A DNA stretch of 29,838 bases from a virus: positions 1 to 29,838 of the IMG/VR virus record IMGVR_UViG_3300028610_000670. The stretch is one strand, 5' to 3'. The notes under the pieces were generated by a model. That model saw only the letters and a list, made by a program, of their open reading frames with translations, ran no database searches and was not told the origin of the DNA. The stretch's first letter is position 1; each line of letters starts with the position of its first letter. Shown piece after piece: positions 1 to 15,846 of this stretch. The position numbers and the translations under genes were made by a program.

Positions 1-1073
1 CCTCGCGCAGCGGGTCCAAAATTCAACTCCAAAATCTGGTCTACTAGGTGCCAATTGGTCAGCCTAGTTATGTGTCTGTCCGTGCGCTCGGCGTCTACTA
101 GCGCCAAATCCTTATGCGTCCCCGCTTCGGCCTTTGAACCGAATCGCCCCTCAAGTAACGCGCGCTCTGGCCAACCGAAACCACGTACAAACAATGCGTC
201 TAGATACTTTGCTCGATCGACAAAGGAAACTTGTCTTGCGACTTTGTCGGAAATCAATTCAAGCTTCCACGAGAGTTTGTCGTTTATGTCCCCTTTCAAT
301 TCTTCGATTGTGTTCGCTGTAGTCCTTGGGATCGTTACACTGCCCGAAGCCTCCAGCCCCGCGAGTATGTTTTTCGCAATCACGGAGTTTTCTTGATACA
401 CACCCTCCAGAACAGCGCCGCCATACGGGTAGGTGATTACCCAATGCGATCCAGCAATTCGCAAATCGTACCTCGCGGCGCCCGCGTCGGTTGCGCACCA
501 CTTCTCGAAAATCGGTCTTAGGTTTTCAAGTATCGAGTTGCCATACCAGTCGGTACCCTCGACTCTCATGGACACTAAAAAGGATTTTTCGAGAGGTACA
601 GTAACAGACGGATGCCCCCTGTCTTGCAAGAATCCGGCAAACTGTCCGGTTTCCGGTACGACCAGTATCTTAGTAATGTCGACAAGTAACGATTTTAATT
701 TCGCCAACACCACCCGCTGTCCAGCTTTGGTCTGCTCTAGACGAAACACTTTCTCGAATCCAGCCCAACCAAAGTCGGTCCCATTGTTCAGGGCATCCGT
801 GTACAATACCTCGCGCAACGGTAAAAACATCCCATCGATAAAATCTACCCAATCATCGTCAACGTCGTCATCCCGCTTTTCTACGGTCCATGATCCAGAC
901 GAGATAGCGGCAGACATTAGCTGACGAGCAAGCCAAACAGTCGGTTGCGCTCTGATAGTTCTGTATGTCTTGAAAGTCTTGGGCAACGACGGGGGCAGCT
1001 TGTCCCCTATCATCATTACAATCGTCTGAGACTTTGTCAGTTCTTCGTTAGGTTTCGTTGGTTCATCGGGCAT
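1..1073 (-). CDS. Phage portal protein, Mu gp29/DUF935 type (partial, C-terminus outside window)
   Basis: The reading frame opens with ATG at 1073, directly after the terminase stop (TAG at 1074-1076), and stays open for 357 codons to the window edge, so the C-terminus is missing. The product begins MPDEPTKPNEEL. Near residue 300 it has FVRGFGWPERALLEGRFGS followed by KAEAGTHKDLALVDAERTD, the pattern I associate with DUF935/Mu gp29 portals, in which this segment precedes a C-terminal helix bundle. Portals form the dodecameric ring at the capsid vertex through which terminase pumps DNA. Position right after the large terminase gene is the usual packaging order. Family assignment is from recalled motif pattern; the gene itself is clear from its long open frame and tight spacing. 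Confidence 0.85.
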   Translation of the reverse strand, partial: MPDEPTKPNEELTKSQTIVMMIGDKLPPSLPKTFKTYRTIRAQPTVWLARQLMSAAISSGSWTVEKRDDDVDDDWVDFIDGMFLPLREVLYTDALNNGTDFGWAGFEKVFRLEQTKAGQRVVLAKLKSLLVDITKILVVPETGQFAGFLQDRGHPSVTVPLEKSFLVSMRVEGTDWYGNSILENLRPIFEKWCATDAGAARYDLRIAGSHWVITYPYGGAVLEGVYQENSVIAKNILAGLEASGSVTIPRTTANTIEELKGDINDKLSWKLELISDKVARQVSFVDRAKYLDALFVRGFGWPERALLEGRFGSKAEAGTHKDLALVDAERTDRHITRLTNWHLVDQILELNFGPAAR

Positions 1074-2474
1074 CTAATTGGTCCCCGGCACGGAAATAGT
1101 AATCTCTTGCGTGCCTGCGCCACGTAGTTCTACGTCAACAGGAAACAAACGAAAAACCGGATAGCCCATCGCGTCGGTCATATGACCTATTTTTCTTACT
1201 CTACCTTGCTTATCGTCAGCCTCTTTAGTTCCGGGTTTGTATGCTCGCGTTCGCAAGTCGTCTATTAGGTGCGCGCACGACGGGTCGACAAACATTCTAC
1301 AGTCGTCGTCGACGTTACAGAACATTGCGTTACATGCTGCGAAACGGTCCGAAACTGGAGGATTGATACTCGGATAGTGAACCGAGCACCCTAACTCGTG
1401 AAAACGTTTGTCCGACGCTATATGGTTGTAGTCAGACTGCTCGGCGGAACTTTTGTTCTGCTGCCCAGTAGCGTCCCCGTAGAATTCAAAACCTCCGACG
1501 TGGCTCTTATATCGTTCGTAAAGAACTCTCAGAGTCGCGGGCGTGTTAGTGTGTTCCATGTAAATCTCGTCGAACCACTCCATTCGGTTCTTGTAACGAT
1601 GCCCGAGAACCCACGCCATCGGGTTGACGTTGAAATCCGAACCTACAACTATCGCTTGATCGTGATGGTACTCTACGCGACGAACGTTATACGATTCTGA
1701 AAACGCATGGAACACACCACCACCAGCGTCGACAAACACTCCACCGAATTGTTCCCGGTAGTCTAGCGTCGCCATCATGCGACGCGCGTACTCTAGCTGC
1801 TCGTCGGATAGTATGTCGTCAGACGCCCACGTAAACCCCGCAGCGTCGGGTATCTGTCCCGAACAGGCTCCTTCATGGAACTTGCGAAACTCAGTAGCAG
1901 ACGGCCCGAATCGTTTAGGTACGCCGATGCGCCAGCACCACCCAAGACGATGCGCGAGCATCGGCAGCACAACAAGCTCGAATACCTTTGGCTTTAGATC
2001 GCACGACTCGTCCAATCCGCAGCCGTCCCACTGTATACCTTCCGCCCTCTGCGGTTTATCCATCCCGATGACGTACAACTCGGAACCGAACACCGTTTCA
2101 ATTTTCAGTTCCGCCGTCTTGATCGCATGAATCCAGTTCTTGGGGATTAGCTGTAGGAAATGATTCCAGGCAATACGCTTAGCCTGCGCCTCAGTAGGCG
2201 CTCCATAGAAGTATCTCGGCGTCCCCCACGGTTTCGGAATCGGTAAGCAACGAACCAATCGCCGCTTGAGTAACTCCGTCTTGCCCGACCCACGCCCGGC
2301 CGGTACCGAAACGAACCTTTTCTTGCAAAGCCAGAGCGCCCGTTGAATAGCGTGGTGATGCAACCTAGACCACGCATCCGTTAAAGGCGTTCTCTTAGTT
2401 TGGCGCAGACTTCTCCGTATCGCCGAAGTTGATCGAGCTTTGTCTTGTTCAAGTTTTGCAGTAGCTCTGACCAT
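1074..2474 (-). CDS. terL: Terminase large subunit (packaging ATPase-nuclease)
   Basis: 466 residues, a normal length for the family. The ATPase half has Walker A PAGRGSGKT at about 58-66 and a Walker B-like strand ending GCGLDE at about 151-156. The nuclease half is RNase H-like, with acidic residues in GSDFNVNP (about 278-285), FYGDATG (about 331-337) and a C-terminal HMTDAMGYPVFRL segment that matches the conserved last Asp region of terminases. The protein cleaves concatemeric DNA and drives it into the prohead through the portal encoded immediately downstream. The ATG at 2474 has only a weak Shine-Dalgarno and follows the previous stop by 4 bases. The N-terminal 30 residues are basic, which may help contact DNA or the small subunit. 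Confidence 0.95.
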   Translation of the reverse strand: MVRATAKLEQDKARSTSAIRRSLRQTKRTPLTDAWSRLHHHAIQRALWLCKKRFVSVPAGRGSGKTELLKRRLVRCLPIPKPWGTPRYFYGAPTEAQAKRIAWNHFLQLIPKNWIHAIKTAELKIETVFGSELYVIGMDKPQRAEGIQWDGCGLDESCDLKPKVFELVVLPMLAHRLGWCWRIGVPKRFGPSATEFRKFHEGACSGQIPDAAGFTWASDDILSDEQLEYARRMMATLDYREQFGGVFVDAGGGVFHAFSESYNVRRVEYHHDQAIVVGSDFNVNPMAWVLGHRYKNRMEWFDEIYMEHTNTPATLRVLYERYKSHVGGFEFYGDATGQQNKSSAEQSDYNHIASDKRFHELGCSVHYPSINPPVSDRFAACNAMFCNVDDDCRMFVDPSCAHLIDDLRTRAYKPGTKEADDKQGRVRKIGHMTDAMGYPVFRLFPVDVELRGAGTQEITISVPGTN

Positions 2475-4136: not shown

Positions 4137-4313
4137 TCAATCAAGATTCCACAGAACGTCACAGCAGGTATCCCCTTGCTCCGGGGAAGTTTTTACGTTG
4201 TCGTCACTCCACGTCGCTAGACCCAAATCAACCGAAATCGTCCCGTCATCGTCCGGCGTGGGAAACGCCAACGTAAACCGAATGTCGCTTTGTGTACTCG
4301 TCTCGTCCATCAT
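4137..4313 (-). CDS. Small hypothetical protein in virion operon
   Basis: 58 residues beginning MMDETSTQSDIRFTLAF. The ATG at 4313 overlaps the TGA of the preceding gene (ATGA). A longer in-frame start at 4400 would run 88 bases deep into that gene and is not favoured. The product is acidic with a mostly beta pattern (TISVDLGLATWSDDNVK) and two adjacent Cys near the end (DTCCDVLW). No family recognised. It lies 6 bases before the repeat protein, in the same operon. Confidence 0.65.
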   Translation of the reverse strand: MMDETSTQSDIRFTLAFPTPDDDGTISVDLGLATWSDDNVKTSPEQGDTCCDVLWNLD

Positions 4314-4714
4314 GCTACCGCGACAGACAAATCCGTCGCGTTGAATTTCGGTTGCGTACCAGTCACGACGGGCAGCGCGGTTGTCAATACATCGAACCAT
4401 AGAAGATTACCGGCGCTGGACGCATCACAAGCCGCTACGTCTGTTTCCGTCTCCGATCCCGACGTAGCTTCCGGGAACGTGATAACGTTGGCATTGTTTG
4501 CCAGACCCGCCGCTGCCGCGTTCCAATCCGCACCCGCTGTAGACTGACGCGCATATCCTCCATACGCCGCTTCCGTAATCGTTGTACCCGTGTCGTTGTC
4601 GGCCACAGCAGCCGTACATAGAGCAATGAAAACGTTCGTGGGTTTGGTGTAGGCGGTTTTTGAGGTCACGTGGTCCGCCAATGCGTTTTCTAGAAAGTCG
4701 CTTGCTTGAGACAT
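4310..4714 (-). CDS. Conserved phage structural-type protein (tail/appendage-like)
   Basis: 134 residues. The N-terminus MSQASDFLENALADHV followed by KPTNVFIALCTAAVADND, a central GGYARQSTAGADW, and GNLLWFDVLTTALPV form a pattern I recall from a widespread family of small phage virion proteins (start 'x-NYLENALLDHx', 'Y-[TV]-ALFTA', 'Y-x-R', 'GNLLW'). Several members are annotated as tail or head-fibre proteins; the exact role is not settled. ATG at 4714 has GGGAG 6 bases upstream. It precedes two other small structural genes and overlaps the next by 4 bases. Confidence 0.75.
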   Translation of the reverse strand: MSQASDFLENALADHVTSKTAYTKPTNVFIALCTAAVADNDTGTTITEAAYGGYARQSTAGADWNAAAAGLANNANVITFPEATSGSETETDVAACDASSAGNLLWFDVLTTALPVVTGTQPKFNATDLSVAVA

Positions 4715-6700: not shown

Positions 6701-6961
6701 CTACCAACCGTGCGTGACTACGTGCCCGGTTGCATCAAATTCTAATCCAGGTAATCCGACCGACGCGCGCGACCGAGAGTCTATACGCGCCGATCGAATC
6801 ACCGCCCGCGCCCAATAACGTAGGCAAACGGCGTAGCCAAACTGGCCCGTCAAAACTCTCTTGATCCTACGGCGACCCGCCACGACTCGTGCAAACTGTC
6901 CGGCGTGCTCCAAACATTTACAGACAAGTCGTCGTAGGATGAAAAGAGTTTTGAAAATCAC
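6701..6961 (-). CDS. Small basic hypothetical protein with hydrophobic N-terminus
   Basis: 86 residues from a GTG at 6961 that overlaps the upstream stop as GTGA; a longer version from GTG 6970 is possible. The product starts with a hydrophobic stretch (MIFKTLFILRRL), continues very Arg-rich and ends with GLPGLEFDATGHVVTHGW. It fills a 287-base interval that would otherwise be empty in a tightly packed operon, which is the main reason for calling it. The hydrophobic start is too short for a confident membrane helix. No family recognised. Confidence 0.5.
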   Translation of the reverse strand: MIFKTLFILRRLVCKCLEHAGQFARVVAGRRRIKRVLTGQFGYAVCLRYWARAVIRSARIDSRSRASVGLPGLEFDATGHVVTHGW

Positions 6962-7179
6962 GAGCAACACCGCACACCTACTCCCGCCGTTCTTACAACG
7001 TGTCCATGATCTACCACGTAGGGAAGGTAAAAATCTGGCTGCAACAGTGCGCCAAATATGAGAGCGCCGCCATCAGCATGAGTAGTGTAACCCACGGAAA
7101 CATCTTCCCAGTTTTCATCGTTGCACCGAACCTCGAAACGTTGCCCTTCGTTCGTTTCCGAGTATTCCGATTCAGCCAT
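6958..7179 (-). CDS. Small conserved-motif protein, paralogue of its upstream neighbour
   Basis: 73 residues from ATG 7179 (a GTG at 7182 lies directly before it). The core NEGQRFEVRCNDENWEDVSV, then GYTTHADGGALIFGAL, then LPYVVDHG aligns residue for residue with the protein encoded just upstream. The shared features are EGQR[YF]EVRC, EDV-x-VG[WY], DGG and PYV[IV]D. A tail VVRTAGVGVRCCS follows. The start overlaps the upstream stop by a few bases. A small beta-sheet module is likely. The function is unknown. Confidence 0.7.
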   Translation of the reverse strand: MAESEYSETNEGQRFEVRCNDENWEDVSVGYTTHADGGALIFGALLQPDFYLPYVVDHGHVVRTAGVGVRCCS

Positions 7180-7390
7180 CACTCTGCCGATCGATCACGT
7201 AGGGATCATGCCACGACGGGTGCATGTTGATTGACTCGACGAGTCCACCGCCATCCTCTTTGTCCGTCCAGCCAACACCTACGTCCTCTCCATCTTCGTT
7301 CTTACATCGCACTTCGTAGCGTTGCCCCTCATCGCCGACGCGCGGCATTTGATCGCAAGCCGATCGTATCAACTCGTCGTTCGATGCCAT
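7172..7390 (-). CDS. Small conserved-motif protein (EGQRYEVRC family)
   Basis: 72 residues. After a 20-residue lead (MASNDELIRSACDQMPRVGD) comes EGQRYEVRCKNEDGEDVGVG, then WTDKEDGGGLVESI, then HPSWHDPYVIDRQ. I recall similar small proteins in other phages, with no known role. ATG at 7390 has GGAGTGA 7 bases upstream, overlapping the stop of the terminase small subunit gene. The neighbour at 6958-7179 is a clear tandem duplicate with diverged ends. Confidence 0.75.
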   Translation of the reverse strand: MASNDELIRSACDQMPRVGDEGQRYEVRCKNEDGEDVGVGWTDKEDGGGLVESINMHPSWHDPYVIDRQSDG

Positions 7391-8490: not shown

Positions 8491-8883
8491 TTATTTTTGG
8501 CCCACCACTATCCGAACAACCTGCGAGAAGCTTTTTTCGTTTCTACACATTGCTTGCTCGACCGTTACTGATCCCGGTTCGTTGTTATCCGGCTCGTCGT
8601 CGTCATCAATGTCATCGTCCGAATTGTTAGTGGCGTCTTGAATCTGAGTCCTCTTTTTTTCCGCTTCGGCACGAGTCAGCCAAAGATGGGGCGGTCCACC
8701 TGTAACGTCCGTAACGTAAGACCATGGCCCCCGTCGGTACCTCACTCGAATTGCGTACCACGGTTCTTTTTGTGCTCTCAATCCCGCAGTTATCCAGCCG
8801 TTACCCGTTTCTATCGGTATTCCGGCAAATTGTCCATACTGCTGAATCCGCGTAGCTGCTGTTGACCGTTTCTTTTTCTTCAT
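8491..8883 (-). CDS. WLTR-domain protein with acidic insertion
   Basis: 130 residues. A basic lead (MKKKKRSTAATRIQQYGQF) is followed by one copy of the domain repeated in this region: EPWYAIRVRYRRGPWSYV (about 40-57), GGPPHLWLTRAEAEKKR (about 62-78) and a closing strand FSQVVRIVVGQK (119-130). Between the helix and the last strand sits an Asp/Asn-rich insertion of about 20 residues (DDDIDDDDEPDNNEPG). The fold is probably three strands plus a helix. The function is unknown. The ATG overlaps the stop of the related upstream gene (ATGA-type coupling). Confidence 0.75.
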   Translation of the reverse strand: MKKKKRSTAATRIQQYGQFAGIPIETGNGWITAGLRAQKEPWYAIRVRYRRGPWSYVTDVTGGPPHLWLTRAEAEKKRTQIQDATNNSDDDIDDDDEPDNNEPGSVTVEQAMCRNEKSFSQVVRIVVGQK

Positions 8884-9173
8884 AGTTTTCCCTCTTGTTC
8901 AGGTACGATTTTGACGACTCGCGCCCATAAATTTTTCCCGTGCTGATATTTCAATTCTCTTACACGCTTCTCCGCTTCCTTACGTGTCAGCCACAGTTTC
9001 GGCGGACCTTCGGCTACAACTCTCTCGTAATCGTAGCCTTCCCAAGAATTGTCGGATATTCTCAAATTCCATTTGACAGCCCACCACGGCCCGAATAAAA
9101 CTTTTGAGTTTGGCTCTGTAGCTATCTCAACTGTACCCAATGTAATCAGTCGCGTTGTTCGTTTTCTTTTCAT
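8880..9173 (-). CDS. WLTR-domain protein, single copy
   Basis: 97 residues from ATG 9173, which overlaps the upstream TGA (ATGA) and has GAGAGGAAA before it. A much longer start at 9290 would run through the upstream gene and is rejected. A basic start MKRKRTTRLITLG leads to the domain: GPWWAVKWNLRISDNSW (28-44), then EGPPKLWLTRKEAEKRVREL (55-74), then WARVVKIVPEQ (83-93). The shared core is [PG]PW[YW]-[VA]-V, GPP-x-x-WLTR-x-x-AE, and a last RVV-x-I strand. No catalytic motif and no known family. Confidence 0.75.
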   Translation of the reverse strand: MKRKRTTRLITLGTVEIATEPNSKVLFGPWWAVKWNLRISDNSWEGYDYERVVAEGPPKLWLTRKEAEKRVRELKYQHGKNLWARVVKIVPEQEGKL

Positions 9174-9346
9174 CGCTGTTTCCTCTCGTGCCGTTGCAAT
9201 GCTACAAGCGCTGCCTGGATCGTCAGTGTCAGTTGACTCGTCGATCCGTCTAAGAGAACTTCGGGGCCACGATAGAGATTCCACGCCCAACGATCACCAC
9301 GGAGTTTCCAAATGCTGATCGAAAACGTTTTTCGTTTACCAGTCAT
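9170..9346 (-). CDS. 58-residue beta-alpha protein
   Basis: ATG 9346 overlaps the stop of the upstream basic peptide gene as ATGA, and its own TGA overlaps the next ATG the same way. The order is MTGKRKTFSISIWKLRGDRW, then AWNLYRGPEVLLDGSTSQL, then TLTIQAALVALQRHERKQR. The pattern of two or three strands (with W-x-W and GPE-V-LLDG) and one helix resembles a shrunken WLTR domain, but the PPWY and WLTR residues are not present, so I do not place it in that family. Confidence 0.6.
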   Translation of the reverse strand: MTGKRKTFSISIWKLRGDRWAWNLYRGPEVLLDGSTSQLTLTIQAALVALQRHERKQR

Positions 9347-9471
9347 CTTCGTTTTCTCCGTTTGGGTCGCTGCTGAATCTTCGTACCTTTTCTCGTGCTC
9401 TTTTTCTTCCTACGTTTTTTTCTCAGCTTCCAACTACATGTTAGCCTAGTAATTTCTTTTGCGTTGTTCAT
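9343..9471 (-). CDS. 42-residue highly basic peptide
   Basis: ATG 9471 overlaps the preceding stop (ATGA), and the end overlaps the next start (ATGA). The product is MNNAKEITRLTCSWKLRKK followed by an almost continuous Arg/Lys run to the stop (…KRRKRR). Roughly half of all residues are Lys or Arg. It may bind RNA, DNA or membrane phospholipid; nothing more can be said. Being coupled at both ends makes it unlikely to be chance. Confidence 0.55.
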   Translation of the reverse strand: MNNAKEITRLTCSWKLRKKRRKKKSTRKGTKIQQRPKRRKRR

Positions 9472-9701
9472 AGCACACACGACCAACAAACGAGTTTCCA
9501 ACCCGTACTAGACAAAACGGACGTCATATTTTCGTCCGTCATGGGCCGTCCGCATTCGTTACAACGCAATACGGCTCGGTCACGCGAGGATCGCGACTCG
9601 TCCGGCCAAATCCACCAAACGAGAATGAACAGAGCGCCACAAGCGAGGAAAGCCCCTCCAATGAGCCACAGCAACACGGTAATCGGTTCGGCTTCTGGCA
9701 T
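9468..9701 (-). CDS. Membrane-anchored zinc-ribbon protein A
   Basis: 77 residues from ATG 9701, chosen because GGAGAGG lies 8 bases upstream; a TTG at 9719 is inside that site. Residues about 5-32 (ITVLLWLIGGAFLACGALFI, then LVWWIW) form one transmembrane helix. The cytoplasmic part has CNECGRPM … CWSC, a zinc ribbon with two C-x2-C pairs. The layout matches that of the protein at 9793-10044. No partner is known. It may tether a zinc domain to the inner membrane. Confidence 0.7.
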   Translation of the reverse strand: MPEAEPITVLLWLIGGAFLACGALFILVWWIWPDESRSSRDRAVLRCNECGRPMTDENMTSVLSSTGWKLVCWSCVL

Positions 9702-9706
9702 GATGT

Positions 9707-9796
9707 TTATCCTCTCCAATGGTCTCGGAAGAAATCACGTATTCCGACCATGAGCCACCACAGACCAAACAAAATGAACCAATCCCAAAACGTCAT
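9707..9796 (-). CDS. 29-residue aromatic membrane peptide
   Basis: ATG 9796 overlaps the upstream TGA (ATGA); stop TAA at 9707. The product is MTFWDWFILFGLWWLMVGIR followed by DFFRDHWRG: Trp/Phe-rich hydrophobic helix with a charged end. A longer in-frame start at 9910 lies inside the upstream gene and is rejected. The gene sits between two membrane-anchored zinc-ribbon genes. No family is assignable. Confidence 0.55.
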   Translation of the reverse strand: MTFWDWFILFGLWWLMVGIRDFFRDHWRG

Positions 9797-10044
9797 AGCC
9801 CGACCCCTCCTTGGCATTGCGGACAAATCGTCTTGACGTTTCGCTGTCGCATATCGCGAATAACTTGACGATCGACGTTTACCTCTATCGGTCTCTTGCA
9901 CGTGTCGCAACGAATTATTCCATGTTCAAGGTCGTAACGTTCCCCTCGGGTCTTGTAGCGTTGATAGATGAGAATTGCCCCAAGCACCACGATTAGCAAT
10001 ACCCACGCCACAACCAAAGCTCCGAGAATTTTCAACCAAATCAT
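9793..10044 (-). CDS. Membrane-anchored zinc-ribbon protein B
   Basis: 83 residues from ATG 10044, with GGGAGCG about 7 bases upstream (a TTG at 10059 gives a longer form). Residues 2-27 are one transmembrane helix (MIWLKILGALVVAWVLLIVV, then LGAILIY). The soluble part carries IIRCDTCKRPI … TICPQC, two C-x2-C pairs spaced like those of protein A. The stretches [IV][IL]RC-x-x-C-x-RP[IM] are nearly the same in both, so the two are probably diverged duplicates. Confidence 0.75.
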   Translation of the reverse strand: MIWLKILGALVVAWVLLIVVLGAILIYQRYKTRGERYDLEHGIIRCDTCKRPIEVNVDRQVIRDMRQRNVKTICPQCQGGVGL

Positions 10045-10045
10045 A

Positions 10046-10630
10046 CTATTCGCTCCCAAATGCCGTCACCCGTACCAAATAAGACGTTGAACGTTTCAAT
10101 CTCCACGCTCGGATTAGCGCACGCTCCCTACTCAACCAAACTCTTGGCGGCCCTCCGTAAACCGCTAGGCGTTGTGTCTGCCAATTGCCTCCGTTTATTT
10201 TAGGATGACACTGCACCACATACCACGGAGGTTTGTAGAATCTGTCACGTCGTCCGTTCGTATGTTCTACGCGCGCATCTACAGACGTATACACGGTTTG
10301 CGAAGTTTGGTCGTGTCGTTTCGGATGGATGTAATTCAACCATTTAGCGGTTTCGCTCTCGACTACTGAGAAAATTTCGACGACACGGGTATCGTAGCAG
10401 TTCTTGAATTTATTCGTGCCTCTTTTCAGAAACGCTGCGCGATCATCAGCCGACCTTTTGGCGAGCCATACTCTTGGCGGGCCTTCGGTGAAGTATCCGC
10501 CTAACATGCGTTCGGTCTCCCAGTCGTCCCCAAAATACGCCATCGTCTGTACGACGTACCACGGCGGATTCCAGTCTGATCCGATGCTATGCTCTATCGC
10601 TACTTGTACATCCTTGTAGCTAGGTTTCAT
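10046..10630 (-). CDS. Protein with two WLTR domains
   Basis: 194 residues containing the local repeat domain twice. Copy 1 has NPPWYVVQTMAYFGDDW (21-37), EGPPRVWLAKRSADDRAAFL (49-68) and TRVVEIF (81-87). Copy 2 has KPPWYVVQCHPKINGGNW (133-150), GGPPRVWLSRERALIRAWRL (159-178) and LVRVTAFG (185-192). A 45-residue linker with no clear structure separates them. The first copy replaces WLTR by WLAK, the second by WLSR. It overlaps the upstream gene by 4 bases. The function is unknown; repeated fusion suggests a small binding module rather than an enzyme. Confidence 0.8.
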   Translation of the reverse strand: MKPSYKDVQVAIEHSIGSDWNPPWYVVQTMAYFGDDWETERMLGGYFTEGPPRVWLAKRSADDRAAFLKRGTNKFKNCYDTRVVEIFSVVESETAKWLNYIHPKRHDQTSQTVYTSVDARVEHTNGRRDRFYKPPWYVVQCHPKINGGNWQTQRLAVYGGPPRVWLSRERALIRAWRLKRSTSYLVRVTAFGSE

Positions 10631-11046
10631 CGTCTACACCTATCACACCACTGTAGCCCTTTTTCGTCCTTGACAGTCGCGTTTGTGGAACATGGAATCG
10701 GTCCGGTTGCTCCCGGTTGTGTCCCTTCGCATTGCCATGTAATCGCACGACCGTGAACGTCTGCCGGTAGATGTACGAACACTTCCTTGGATTCTGGTCT
10801 ACGTGTTAAGGGTTTCGTTGGATAGTCGATACCTAGCTCTAGTATCCGTGTCTCCAATTGTTTGTCAAGCTTCTTCGCGTAGCCCTCCGCGACGTCACGA
10901 GTCAGCCATATATGTGGCGGACCATTGGTTATCGATCGTACGGTTTTCCACACCTTTGACTCACCGCGTACGCGAAACTGTACGACGTACCACGGTGGGC
11001 GTTGCTCACCTACGTTACCCGTTTCAAGCTCTGGTCTCACGCCCAT
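10627..11046 (-). CDS. WLTR domain fused to a zinc ribbon
   Basis: 139 residues. One WLTR copy at about 17-72: RPPWYVVQFRVRGESKVW, NGPPHIWLTRDVAEGYAKKL, LETRILEL. It is followed by a zinc-ribbon-like C-terminus with C106, C119, C134 and C137 (ending WCDRCRR). ATG 11046 overlaps the upstream stop region; a GTG at 11040 forming a GTGA overlap is an alternative. The fusion to a zinc ribbon suggests that the family binds nucleic acid or protein. This is inference. Confidence 0.75.
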   Translation of the reverse strand: MGVRPELETGNVGEQRPPWYVVQFRVRGESKVWKTVRSITNGPPHIWLTRDVAEGYAKKLDKQLETRILELGIDYPTKPLTRRPESKEVFVHLPADVHGRAITWQCEGTQPGATGPIPCSTNATVKDEKGLQWCDRCRR

Positions 11047-12381: not shown

Positions 12382-13008
12382 TCAGCTCCCGTTTTGATTC
12401 TCGCTGCACCGATAGCATTTTCCGCCGGGTTCTTGAACCGCGATCCCGCAGCGCACGCAATCGTGAAGCTTCGCTACGCTTTGCTCTATCTCACGTGTTG
12501 TGGGTGTCGCAAATTGACACTCAACACACATTCCCTCTATACGTTTCGTCGGCATCGGGCCGCCACAGCCTGGACACTTTGGATCATCAACAGGTTGCAA
12601 GTCCCCGAAGTCTATCTGAGACGTATTCGGTTGCTCCTTGCGATGCACCTTAAACGGGAAAAGAACATCCGACAATTTATCCACCCGTTCCTCTGGAATC
12701 GTAGCCGGTGGCGCTCCAGCTATTTGCGACGGGGGCAATAGATGATTACGATGACTGATCGCTTCCATCCATGACGTACAAACGGCCATGACTTCAATAA
12801 GTTCTTTCACGTCAACCAATGTAGGATTCGCGACAGGGGGCGACTCGCGAATTAACAAAAATAGCCTGTCTATGATTGACTTGGAAACCTCGCCTACCTC
12901 TTCGGATAGAATACCGAACCAAACTAGGTCGGCGTGATCCCGATCACCATGTAGGTCGCGCTGCCGACCCTGTTCCAATTCGATAAGCGCTACAAGATGT
13001 TCATTCAT
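12382..13008 (-). CDS. MazG-like NTP pyrophosphohydrolase fused to two zinc ribbons
   Basis: 208 residues. Residues about 8-88 fit the all-alpha MazG-like fold: RQRDLHGDRDHADLVWFGIL, SEEVGEVSKSI with the metal-binding E37-x2-E40, and a second pair in VKELIEVMAV (E69, E72, where the usual last residue is Asp). MazG enzymes hydrolyse (d)NTPs or ppGpp-type nucleotides to monophosphates. The C-terminal part carries C145-C148/C161-C164 and C184-C187/C198-C201, two zinc ribbons (CPGCGG, CVEC; CVRCG, CYRC). ATG 13008 overlaps the upstream stop (ATGA). Ribbon fusion is not standard for the family; the Glu-for-Asp change leaves activity open. Confidence 0.75.
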   Translation of the reverse strand: MNEHLVALIELEQGRQRDLHGDRDHADLVWFGILSEEVGEVSKSIIDRLFLLIRESPPVANPTLVDVKELIEVMAVCTSWMEAISHRNHLLPPSQIAGAPPATIPEERVDKLSDVLFPFKVHRKEQPNTSQIDFGDLQPVDDPKCPGCGGPMPTKRIEGMCVECQFATPTTREIEQSVAKLHDCVRCGIAVQEPGGKCYRCSENQNGS

Positions 13009-13343: not shown

Positions 13344-15224
13344 CTACTGACCGTGGTTTCTTGTGCGGTGAAACTCATCTTCACATTTTCGGCACCAGCC
13401 GTGTATACGCACTGCCTGTTCTTCGTGAACGTTGTACGACTTTTCGCAACGTGGACAGATCGACTTGTCACCAGCACGCTTATTTCGCACAACGCCCATG
13501 GCTTGTGGTGTCATCCCTACTACATGCTCCGTAGGATCAAACGCGGTGAAGATTGTTGGCGCGTTTGCTTGTTTTCTATCCTCTACACGTCGCTCTTGTG
13601 CAACGTGTTCGGCATCCGTGGCGCCATCAATCATAATACAGTCCGTGCATATTCCTTGACCGAACGCGGAATTCGTGTTGTTTAGTTCTTGGCTGCATCT
13701 ACAGCAGCGTGGTACCGTTTCTTCGGCGTCTTTTCGACCTTCCCTAATATCGGTACTTACCCTGTCTGTTCTTCTCTCTTGGGCTCGCCTAATAGCTGCA
13801 TCTATTCTGTCGGAACCACCCGACGCTAGATCAGTAACGGTGATGGTATCCGCGCGATGACGTAAGGCGTCAAACGCCTTCCTAACTTTCGTACGTTCCT
13901 CATCAGGTAGAGCGTTTAGCTCGTCTACTACCCATTGGGTCCGACGCCGCGTCCACATATCCTGTACAGAGTCCGAGGCTTTCCTAGCATCCTCTGGAGA
14001 AATCTGTTCTTTGTAAATCTCCCAGTCGTCGGCTATCGCGTCGTCACCCGAGAGTTTCCATTCCTTCGGTACCTCGAATCCGACGAGTATAACGAATCCT
14101 GTATTGACAACGTGTCTAACTCTTGTACTCGGCTCCCAAGACTTACGCCTGAACGAATTTCCACAACTAGCAGCGTCAGCAACCCACGACGGAATGAGAG
14201 GATTTATTGACGTATGCTGTGGGCAAAGCCACCCACGATCGGCGTTGTTCGGTCTCCACCCCGATCTAATCGCATTGCGTGTAAACGAGTCGTATGTCTC
14301 ACCCATCCCCGGTACTTCATGCTCTCCACAACCCGGTTTGCAGCACCACAGAGATAGTGTCACCGCGAGACGCTCATACTCCCTCCGTTCTTGTTTGTAG
14401 GCGTGTACCTTACAACGCCACGTATCTTCAAAGTCTCCGCGTATTTCCCATCCAGCCTTTACCGCAGCCCAAGCGCTTATAACTACTCTACCGCATTCGC
14501 GGATGTCACACTGCACACAACTATCAGCTAACGGATGCCCGTCTACACCGTGCATCGGACAAACCCAAGTAGTATCCGATGATCTTGTCCAACTATCCTC
14601 AACGAGCAATCGATCATACGCAAGGTCGTCCATAGTAACGGTCGTGCTGTGCTGTACCGTACATCCTTCGGCGCTACACATTGTTCCGTGGCATTGTGTC
14701 GGTTGTATCGTCGGTTGAGCGTGCAGTTTACAATACCAGTGTCCGTCCCTACGTTGCCAACCTACCGCAATCATCGCTACTGAAAAATGACTCCCAGCCG
14801 GATCAAGAATAAAATACGCGCCGCATGACACGTCATTGCATTGGACGCCGTAAGGCTCAGACGCCTTATCGTTAGACTGTCTATGCCCTGGGCACACCCA
14901 ACTACAGTGTTCGCTTTCATTGACGCGCCAACCCGCTTTTACCGCTAAGTAATAGAACTCTGCCCTGCCCTGATTATGGTCCGCGAGAAACAAACGGTTA
15001 CATCCATCGTGACCGCCACCACTACAAGTCATTGCGGTTTGTGCAGGCGCGCTTTCCATTAGTACGACGTGTTCGGGACAGAACCAATGCCCGTTAGAGC
15101 TACGTTGCCATCCCGCTTCACGGACACGATCTAGGAAGCGTTCGGGACTTTCCTCTGCCCGTTTAACCATTTGCCGGGTACAACACGGCGTATAGCAGTA
15201 GGCGCGGTCGATGTTGGTTTCCAT
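13344..15224 (-). CDS. 626-residue tandem zinc-finger array protein
   Basis: Six units run from about residue 10 to 337. Each has a Cys pair (C-x3-8-C), a short helix ending in [AS]GW or a variant, then a W-x-C-x2-H closure: C10-H52, C67-H114, C129-H168, C183-H225, C239-H274 and C294-H337. Typical closures are WFCPEH, WVCPGH, WYCKLH, WVCPMH, WRCKVH and WLCPQH. Single units of this kind are common as small actinophage-type proteins, from memory. Residues 340-500 are mixed and helical, with no Cys array. Two classic ribbons end the protein (C507-C510/C526-C529; C590-C593/C611-C614). Likely a multivalent nucleic-acid or protein binder; the function is unknown. GGGAG precedes ATG 15224. Confidence 0.8.
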   Translation of the reverse strand: METNIDRAYCYTPCCTRQMVKRAEESPERFLDRVREAGWQRSSNGHWFCPEHVVLMESAPAQTAMTCSGGGHDGCNRLFLADHNQGRAEFYYLAVKAGWRVNESEHCSWVCPGHRQSNDKASEPYGVQCNDVSCGAYFILDPAGSHFSVAMIAVGWQRRDGHWYCKLHAQPTIQPTQCHGTMCSAEGCTVQHSTTVTMDDLAYDRLLVEDSWTRSSDTTWVCPMHGVDGHPLADSCVQCDIRECGRVVISAWAAVKAGWEIRGDFEDTWRCKVHAYKQERREYERLAVTLSLWCCKPGCGEHEVPGMGETYDSFTRNAIRSGWRPNNADRGWLCPQHTSINPLIPSWVADAASCGNSFRRKSWEPSTRVRHVVNTGFVILVGFEVPKEWKLSGDDAIADDWEIYKEQISPEDARKASDSVQDMWTRRRTQWVVDELNALPDEERTKVRKAFDALRHRADTITVTDLASGGSDRIDAAIRRAQERRTDRVSTDIREGRKDAEETVPRCCRCSQELNNTNSAFGQGICTDCIMIDGATDAEHVAQERRVEDRKQANAPTIFTAFDPTEHVVGMTPQAMGVVRNKRAGDKSICPRCEKSYNVHEEQAVRIHGWCRKCEDEFHRTRNHGQ

Positions 15225-15465: not shown

Positions 15466-15846
15466 TTAGTACGTGAACAACTCGTGTCCGCAATGCGAAC
15501 AGCGAAACTGATCCTTGACCGAACCACTTGTATAGGTACCATATTTACCGCACGATTCACAACCCCCATGGCCGAAAACAATTCGCCGGTTTTTCGTATC
15601 GAGCGTTCGCAACGCCTCCGCGGCGCACCTTGGGCACCACTTTTTAGCGGTCGTTTCAAGCTCGGCTTTACAGCGATCGCATTTCGGGACGATCCGCGTC
15701 TTTGTGTCCTCTCGGGCCGGTCGCCCGAGGCGCATCCTTTGCGTGCGCTCTGAGAGAACGTAGGACGCCTGCCGTCCCGTCGCGCCACCGTGAAGCGTGC
15801 TATTGAGAGACGCCGATCCGTGCCGTTGTTTTGCTTTCCTACGCAT
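15466..15846 (-). CDS. Double zinc-ribbon protein
   Basis: 126 residues. The first 50 are basic and low in structure (MRRKAKQRHGSASLNSTLHG …). Then CDRCKAELETTAKKWCPRC (about 56-74) and CESCGKYGTYTSG … CSHCGHELFTY (about 95-126) form two ribbons. A competing frame (15420-15788) has no such pattern and is rejected. ATG 15846 overlaps the primase stop by 8 bases. It may be an accessory zinc protein of the replication block; the function is unknown. Confidence 0.75.
   Translation of the reverse strand: MRRKAKQRHGSASLNSTLHGGATGRQASYVLSERTQRMRLGRPAREDTKTRIVPKCDRCKAELETTAKKWCPRCAAEALRTLDTKNRRIVFGHGGCESCGKYGTYTSGSVKDQFRCSHCGHELFTY

Follow-up and report, generated by a model that had tools for sequence, protein, structure and literature searches.

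Several described small domains and proteins invite comparison with the domain reported here. DUF2188 (PF09954) has its features in the same order, namely an aromatic-x-V-V strand, a W on the second strand, a T-x-x-E-A-x-x-x-A helix and a last strand, but it is without the G-P-P-x-x-W-L motif of our domain. DUF1508 (PF07411), a small beta-beta-beta-alpha module, occurs as tandem pairs in several genomes. The phi29 protein p56 is a uracil-DNA glycosylase inhibitor; it and the RNA polymerase epsilon subunit and T7 Gp2-type proteins are likewise small alpha/beta proteins that come from phages or bind RNA polymerase. The epsilon subunit is structurally related to T7 Gp2, and a title cited in the same paper names Gp2 as an inhibitor of the host RNA polymerase (PMC7722741). 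The anti-CRISPR AcrIC9 is a highly acidic protein of 79 residues, ordered from Met5 onward, with element order beta-beta-alpha-beta-alpha-alpha and with epsilon and PaaB as its structural neighbours (PMC10478522).

The DNA analysed (the window, 29,838 bases) spans an entire IMG/VR virus record, which is a tailed-phage genome or a fragment of one. Four of its genes, A to D, carry five copies of a domain of ~60-70 residues, and they sit in an accessory region between the packaging and head genes and the replication genes:

3-1073, minus strand, open reading frame adjoining the terminase gene and kept in terminase relatives
1074-2474, minus strand, large terminase (PHROGs match)
4310-4714, minus strand, head protein
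8491-8883, minus strand, gene A, 130 aa, single copy of the domain from ~residue 40
8880-9173, minus strand, gene B, 97 aa, single copy
10046-10630, minus strand, gene C, 194 aa, copies C1 (residues ~23-91) and C2 (residues ~134-194)
10627-11046, minus strand, gene D, 139 aa, single copy (residues ~17-76) and a C-terminal four-cysteine tail
~15.8 to 26.1 kb, minus strand, replication and recombination module (primase, PolA, Sak4-like protein, PD-(D/E)XK nuclease, uracil-DNA glycosylase, SNF2-type helicase)

The stop codon of gene B overlaps the start codon of gene A in an ATGA, as does the stop of gene D with the start of gene C, which suggests coupled translation within each pair. In gene A a mostly acidic insert of ~35 residues precedes the final strand of the domain, and in gene C a linker of ~43 residues separates the two copies. 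The domain thus occurs alone (B), with an acidic insertion (A) and duplicated (C), as the initial annotation had it; the zinc ribbon that it saw fused to copy D is present as a four-cysteine tail (C-x12-C ... C-x2-C), although no Pfam model recognised that tail. The genes, which had been called neighbouring, are indeed neighbours but are not all contiguous, with at least three unrelated small genes (9170-10044) between the A/B and C/D pairs. A 58-aa ORF between the copies (9170-9346, minus strand) has a DUF1508-like look (RWAWNLYRGPEVLLDGS) and gave no family match.

Leave-one-out profiles, each built from four copies, recover the held-out copy with E-values of 4.7e-10 (A), 4.5e-14 (B), 4.4e-14 (C1), 1.2e-12 (C2) and 3e-15 (D), while among 8,360 shuffled ORFs of the window, run as decoys against the same profiles, the best score is an E of about 1 to 2.3. 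This confirms the proposal of one domain in five copies across four ORFs. Single-sequence searches agree, each copy matching all the other genes of the set above the remaining ORFs of the window. Pairwise identity among the copies is 27-47%, the maximum being that between C1 and C2 of the same gene (47%). The alignment is invariant at P, W, W, G-P-P, W-L and A. The core motif first written for the domain is shared by all five, but with exceptions at its ends: copy A has E-P-W where [PG]-P-W was given and finishes in Q-V-V-R-I in place of R-[VI]-[VL], and copy C2 finishes in R-V-T-A-F. Searched as DNA, the motif has exactly five sites in the window; chance would give 0.00, and 100 shuffles contained none. 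Where two copies have the same residue, the third codon position differs in 49% of cases, the first in 9% and the second in 0.5%; with the differences mainly at the third position, the likeness is held at the protein level and does not come from duplication in assembly.

Three further sets of small domains are locally duplicated in the region, so that the expansion, placed by the initial annotation in a phage accessory region and borne out as a local one there, may reflect the region more than the domain. Two overlapping small paralogues (6958-7182 and 7172-7390, minus strand; 49% identity over 49 residues, E 6e-18) gave no Pfam match. The genes at 9468-9701 and 9793-10044 (minus strand) encode weak paralogues (E 8e-6), each with an apparent membrane helix and CxxC...CxxC. 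The gene at 13344-15224 (minus strand) encodes a protein of 626 aa that contains six tandem Cys/His units of the form C..C...GW...W-x-C-x-x-H (leave-one-out E 2.6e-4 to 4e-9), followed by a Tad2-like stretch (phrog_643, 4.4e-5; Pfam Tad2-like, 0.021, below the cut-off) and by two cysteine-rich stretches at the C-terminus. Cysteine-pair (zinc-ribbon-like) stretches are found in two more proteins (12382-13008 and 15466-15846, minus strand), and the phage seems rich in such proteins.

No match passing the thresholds was found for A to D in Pfam, PHROGs, NCBIfam, PADLOC or PDB sequences, in keeping with the earlier statement that no named family was recognised; the profile search put forward as a check never placed the copies in different known families. 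Nor was there a significant match in 50,697 phage records (INPHARED) or, with gene C as query, in plasmids. Pattern scans of IMG/VR gave 8 loci, none with a relative, and zero loci with a second block pattern, and a scan of GTDB gave 10, all chance by frame and profile; these scans were strict, and distant relatives could escape them. Two matches among 299 sampled bacterial genomes (E about 0.008 per genome) are what chance predicts. The 19 records sharing the terminase, and the fetched stretch inspected from one record sharing the PolA/replication module, contain no significant match to the domain. The best candidate among the relatives, L035:642-890, was rejected, since a longer reading frame runs antisense to it, and tblastn matches to Thibault gp182 and to a saliva phage protein were rejected on inspection. 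One phage, with a terminase 52% identical to that of our record, has ~6 kb upstream of its terminase an orphan ORF of 53 residues (L012:4018-4176) with the same layout, WYVV...TRAQAEA...RVEKIF; the similarity of this ORF to the domain is not significant (E about 0.1) and the ORF is without relatives of its own. By these sequence searches the domain is an orphan family, so far found only in this record, with no orthologue found and no conserved neighbour; the selection for variety that the initial annotation proposed is a possibility.

AlphaFold models were made for copies B and D, B with the five-copy alignment. In the copy B model two strands (30-39; 43-47) are followed by a third, short one near 59-61, a helix at 64-81 and a strand at 82-89; the mean pLDDT is 62, and block means reach 76-86 in strand 1 and at the helix-strand end. 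The copy D model has the same order of elements at lower confidence (mean pLDDT 50; tail mostly about 30-56). The comparison of predicted folds thus did not go against a single domain, and the two models agree on a beta-beta-(beta)-alpha-beta topology, predicted with modest confidence. In the models strand 1 carries P-W-Y-x-V and strand 2 the next W; G-P-P precedes strand 3, and the helix opens with W-L-T and has the A in its first turn. These conserved residues look like a structural core. The variable parts are the surface, the loop ahead of G-P-P and the loop from helix to last strand, which ranges from 0 to about 35 residues.

Among solved structures, both programs rank 8g9s_A, a chain of 70 residues in a type I-C Cascade entry, first for copy B. 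Foldseek gives this chain E 0.25 and probability 0.91 (others listed, 0.25 or less), and VIA gives Z 5.7 over 61/70 residues at 2.6 A and 21% identity; for copy D it ranks seventh with Z 3.6. The tool states a background, a best Z of 7-8 being typical of models that match nothing clearly, and no fold match of B or D exceeds it, so the likeness to 8g9s_A is suggestive only, a lead from predicted models. Among viral models Foldseek had no match with E under 0.001. Chain A of 8G9S is probably AcrIC9, since the size and topology of AcrIC9 fit and its neighbours PaaB and epsilon are also in the copy D list. AcrIC9 would then have a beta-beta-alpha-beta core in common with the copy B model, whereas it has two additional C-terminal helices and is highly acidic (PMC10478522), proteins A to D being at pI 8.7-10.0. 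PDB sequence searches gave no match between 8g9s_A and the copies. Phi29 p56 is lower in the lists of both B and D, and the T4 Dmd antitoxin and the RNA polymerase epsilon subunit (YkzG) are low in that of D; epsilon and p56 have a Z of only 2.2-3.4 to the domain, and no sequence relation to it was found. With AcrIC9, p56 and epsilon/Gp2 among these neighbours or linked to them, small phage host-takeover proteins recur around this fold.

Of the folds first suggested for comparison, AP2 (PF00847) has a Pfam model that no copy matches, and dsRBD sheets did not stand out in the structure lists of the modelled copies; nor did SPOR or NusG-type sheets. DUF1508, also suggested, does not match, with no Pfam match and a profile comparison that scored like shuffled columns (hhalign probability 0.3 against shuffles up to 1.4).

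With invariant residues at strand and helix boundaries, variation in loops and surface, and local multiplication, we favour a scaffold with variable binding surfaces. Proteins A to D may be small phage accessory proteins built on one orphan scaffold of conserved core and variable loops and binding different host partners; joined to this is the view that the copies multiplied by local gene duplication and by duplication within a gene, and to the two together we give a little less than an even chance. Each copy would be a stable scaffold presenting its own surface and binding its own partner, for which the likeliest candidates are host proteins (enzymes or defence factors) or nucleic acid. Early or middle expression, the binding role itself and the diversity of partners are what we infer for these genes, and the domain resembles a kind of small folded domain that is common in phages.

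The main rival comes from charge. All four whole proteins are basic (pI 8.7-10.0; B 10.0, C 9.7), and this mostly positive charge makes nucleic-acid or RNP binding possible: the genes would encode accessory proteins of replication or transcription that bind DNA or RNA through a basic sheet or helix, and whose tandem and cysteine-rich forms raise the affinity or change the targets. The +8 core of C2, the four-cysteine tail of D and the adjoining primase, PolA and recombination genes are consistent with this. Against it, the core of A is acidic (pI 4.8) and that of C1 neutral, the five-copy alignment has no invariant basic column, and no nucleic-acid-binding family was matched; we think this reading unlikely, if the strongest of the alternatives.

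Perhaps the domain instead belongs, as a diverged branch expanded here, to the small DUF2188-type domains (YxVV...W...T..EA..A), which may be housekeeping or phage domains. An hhalign comparison of the domain with 15 DUF2188 members puts the W and T..EA..A in register with a probability of 6.8, above the 1.2 or less of 20 column-shuffled controls, and the Foldseek matches to viral models include a phage protein with DUF2188. However, 6.8% is far from significant, the alignment covers only 34 columns at 9% identity, and no copy matches the Pfam DUF2188 model (cut-off 22 bits) even at E up to 1, so such descent appears improbable. About equally improbable is the view of the four proteins as anti-CRISPR or other anti-defence proteins of AcrIC9-related fold, each blocking one defence complex. 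The rank of 8g9s_A for copy B, the local multiplication of a small module, as anti-defence genes would be multiplied, and the Tad2-like stretch in a gene ~2 kb upstream all speak for it; yet the Z-scores of B and D to 8g9s_A (5.7 and 3.6) are at or below background with no sequence match, the Tad2-like match is under the Pfam cut-off, and A to D are basic where AcrIC9 is highly acidic (PMC10478522) and DNA-mimic Acrs are acidic. A combined form, in which a phage-specific scaffold, distantly of the AcrIC9/epsilon neighbourhood, was multiplied and loop-diversified within one phage into inhibitors of a different host complex each, is a long shot. Neutral expansion, by which duplicated small genes without present function survived by chance in a region that evolves fast, would fit the absence of an orthologue from every relative found but is very improbable indeed, given protein-level constraint across the diverged copies (49% third against 0.5% second position) and four intact frames with coupled starts.

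A 30-kb phage record with five paralogues of one domain that the family libraries lack offers an example of a set of small proteins built from one scaffold. If the copies do not bind different targets, they add another orphan family to those with a common small fold; if they do bind different host targets, they would form a natural stock from which binders or inhibitors could be taken.
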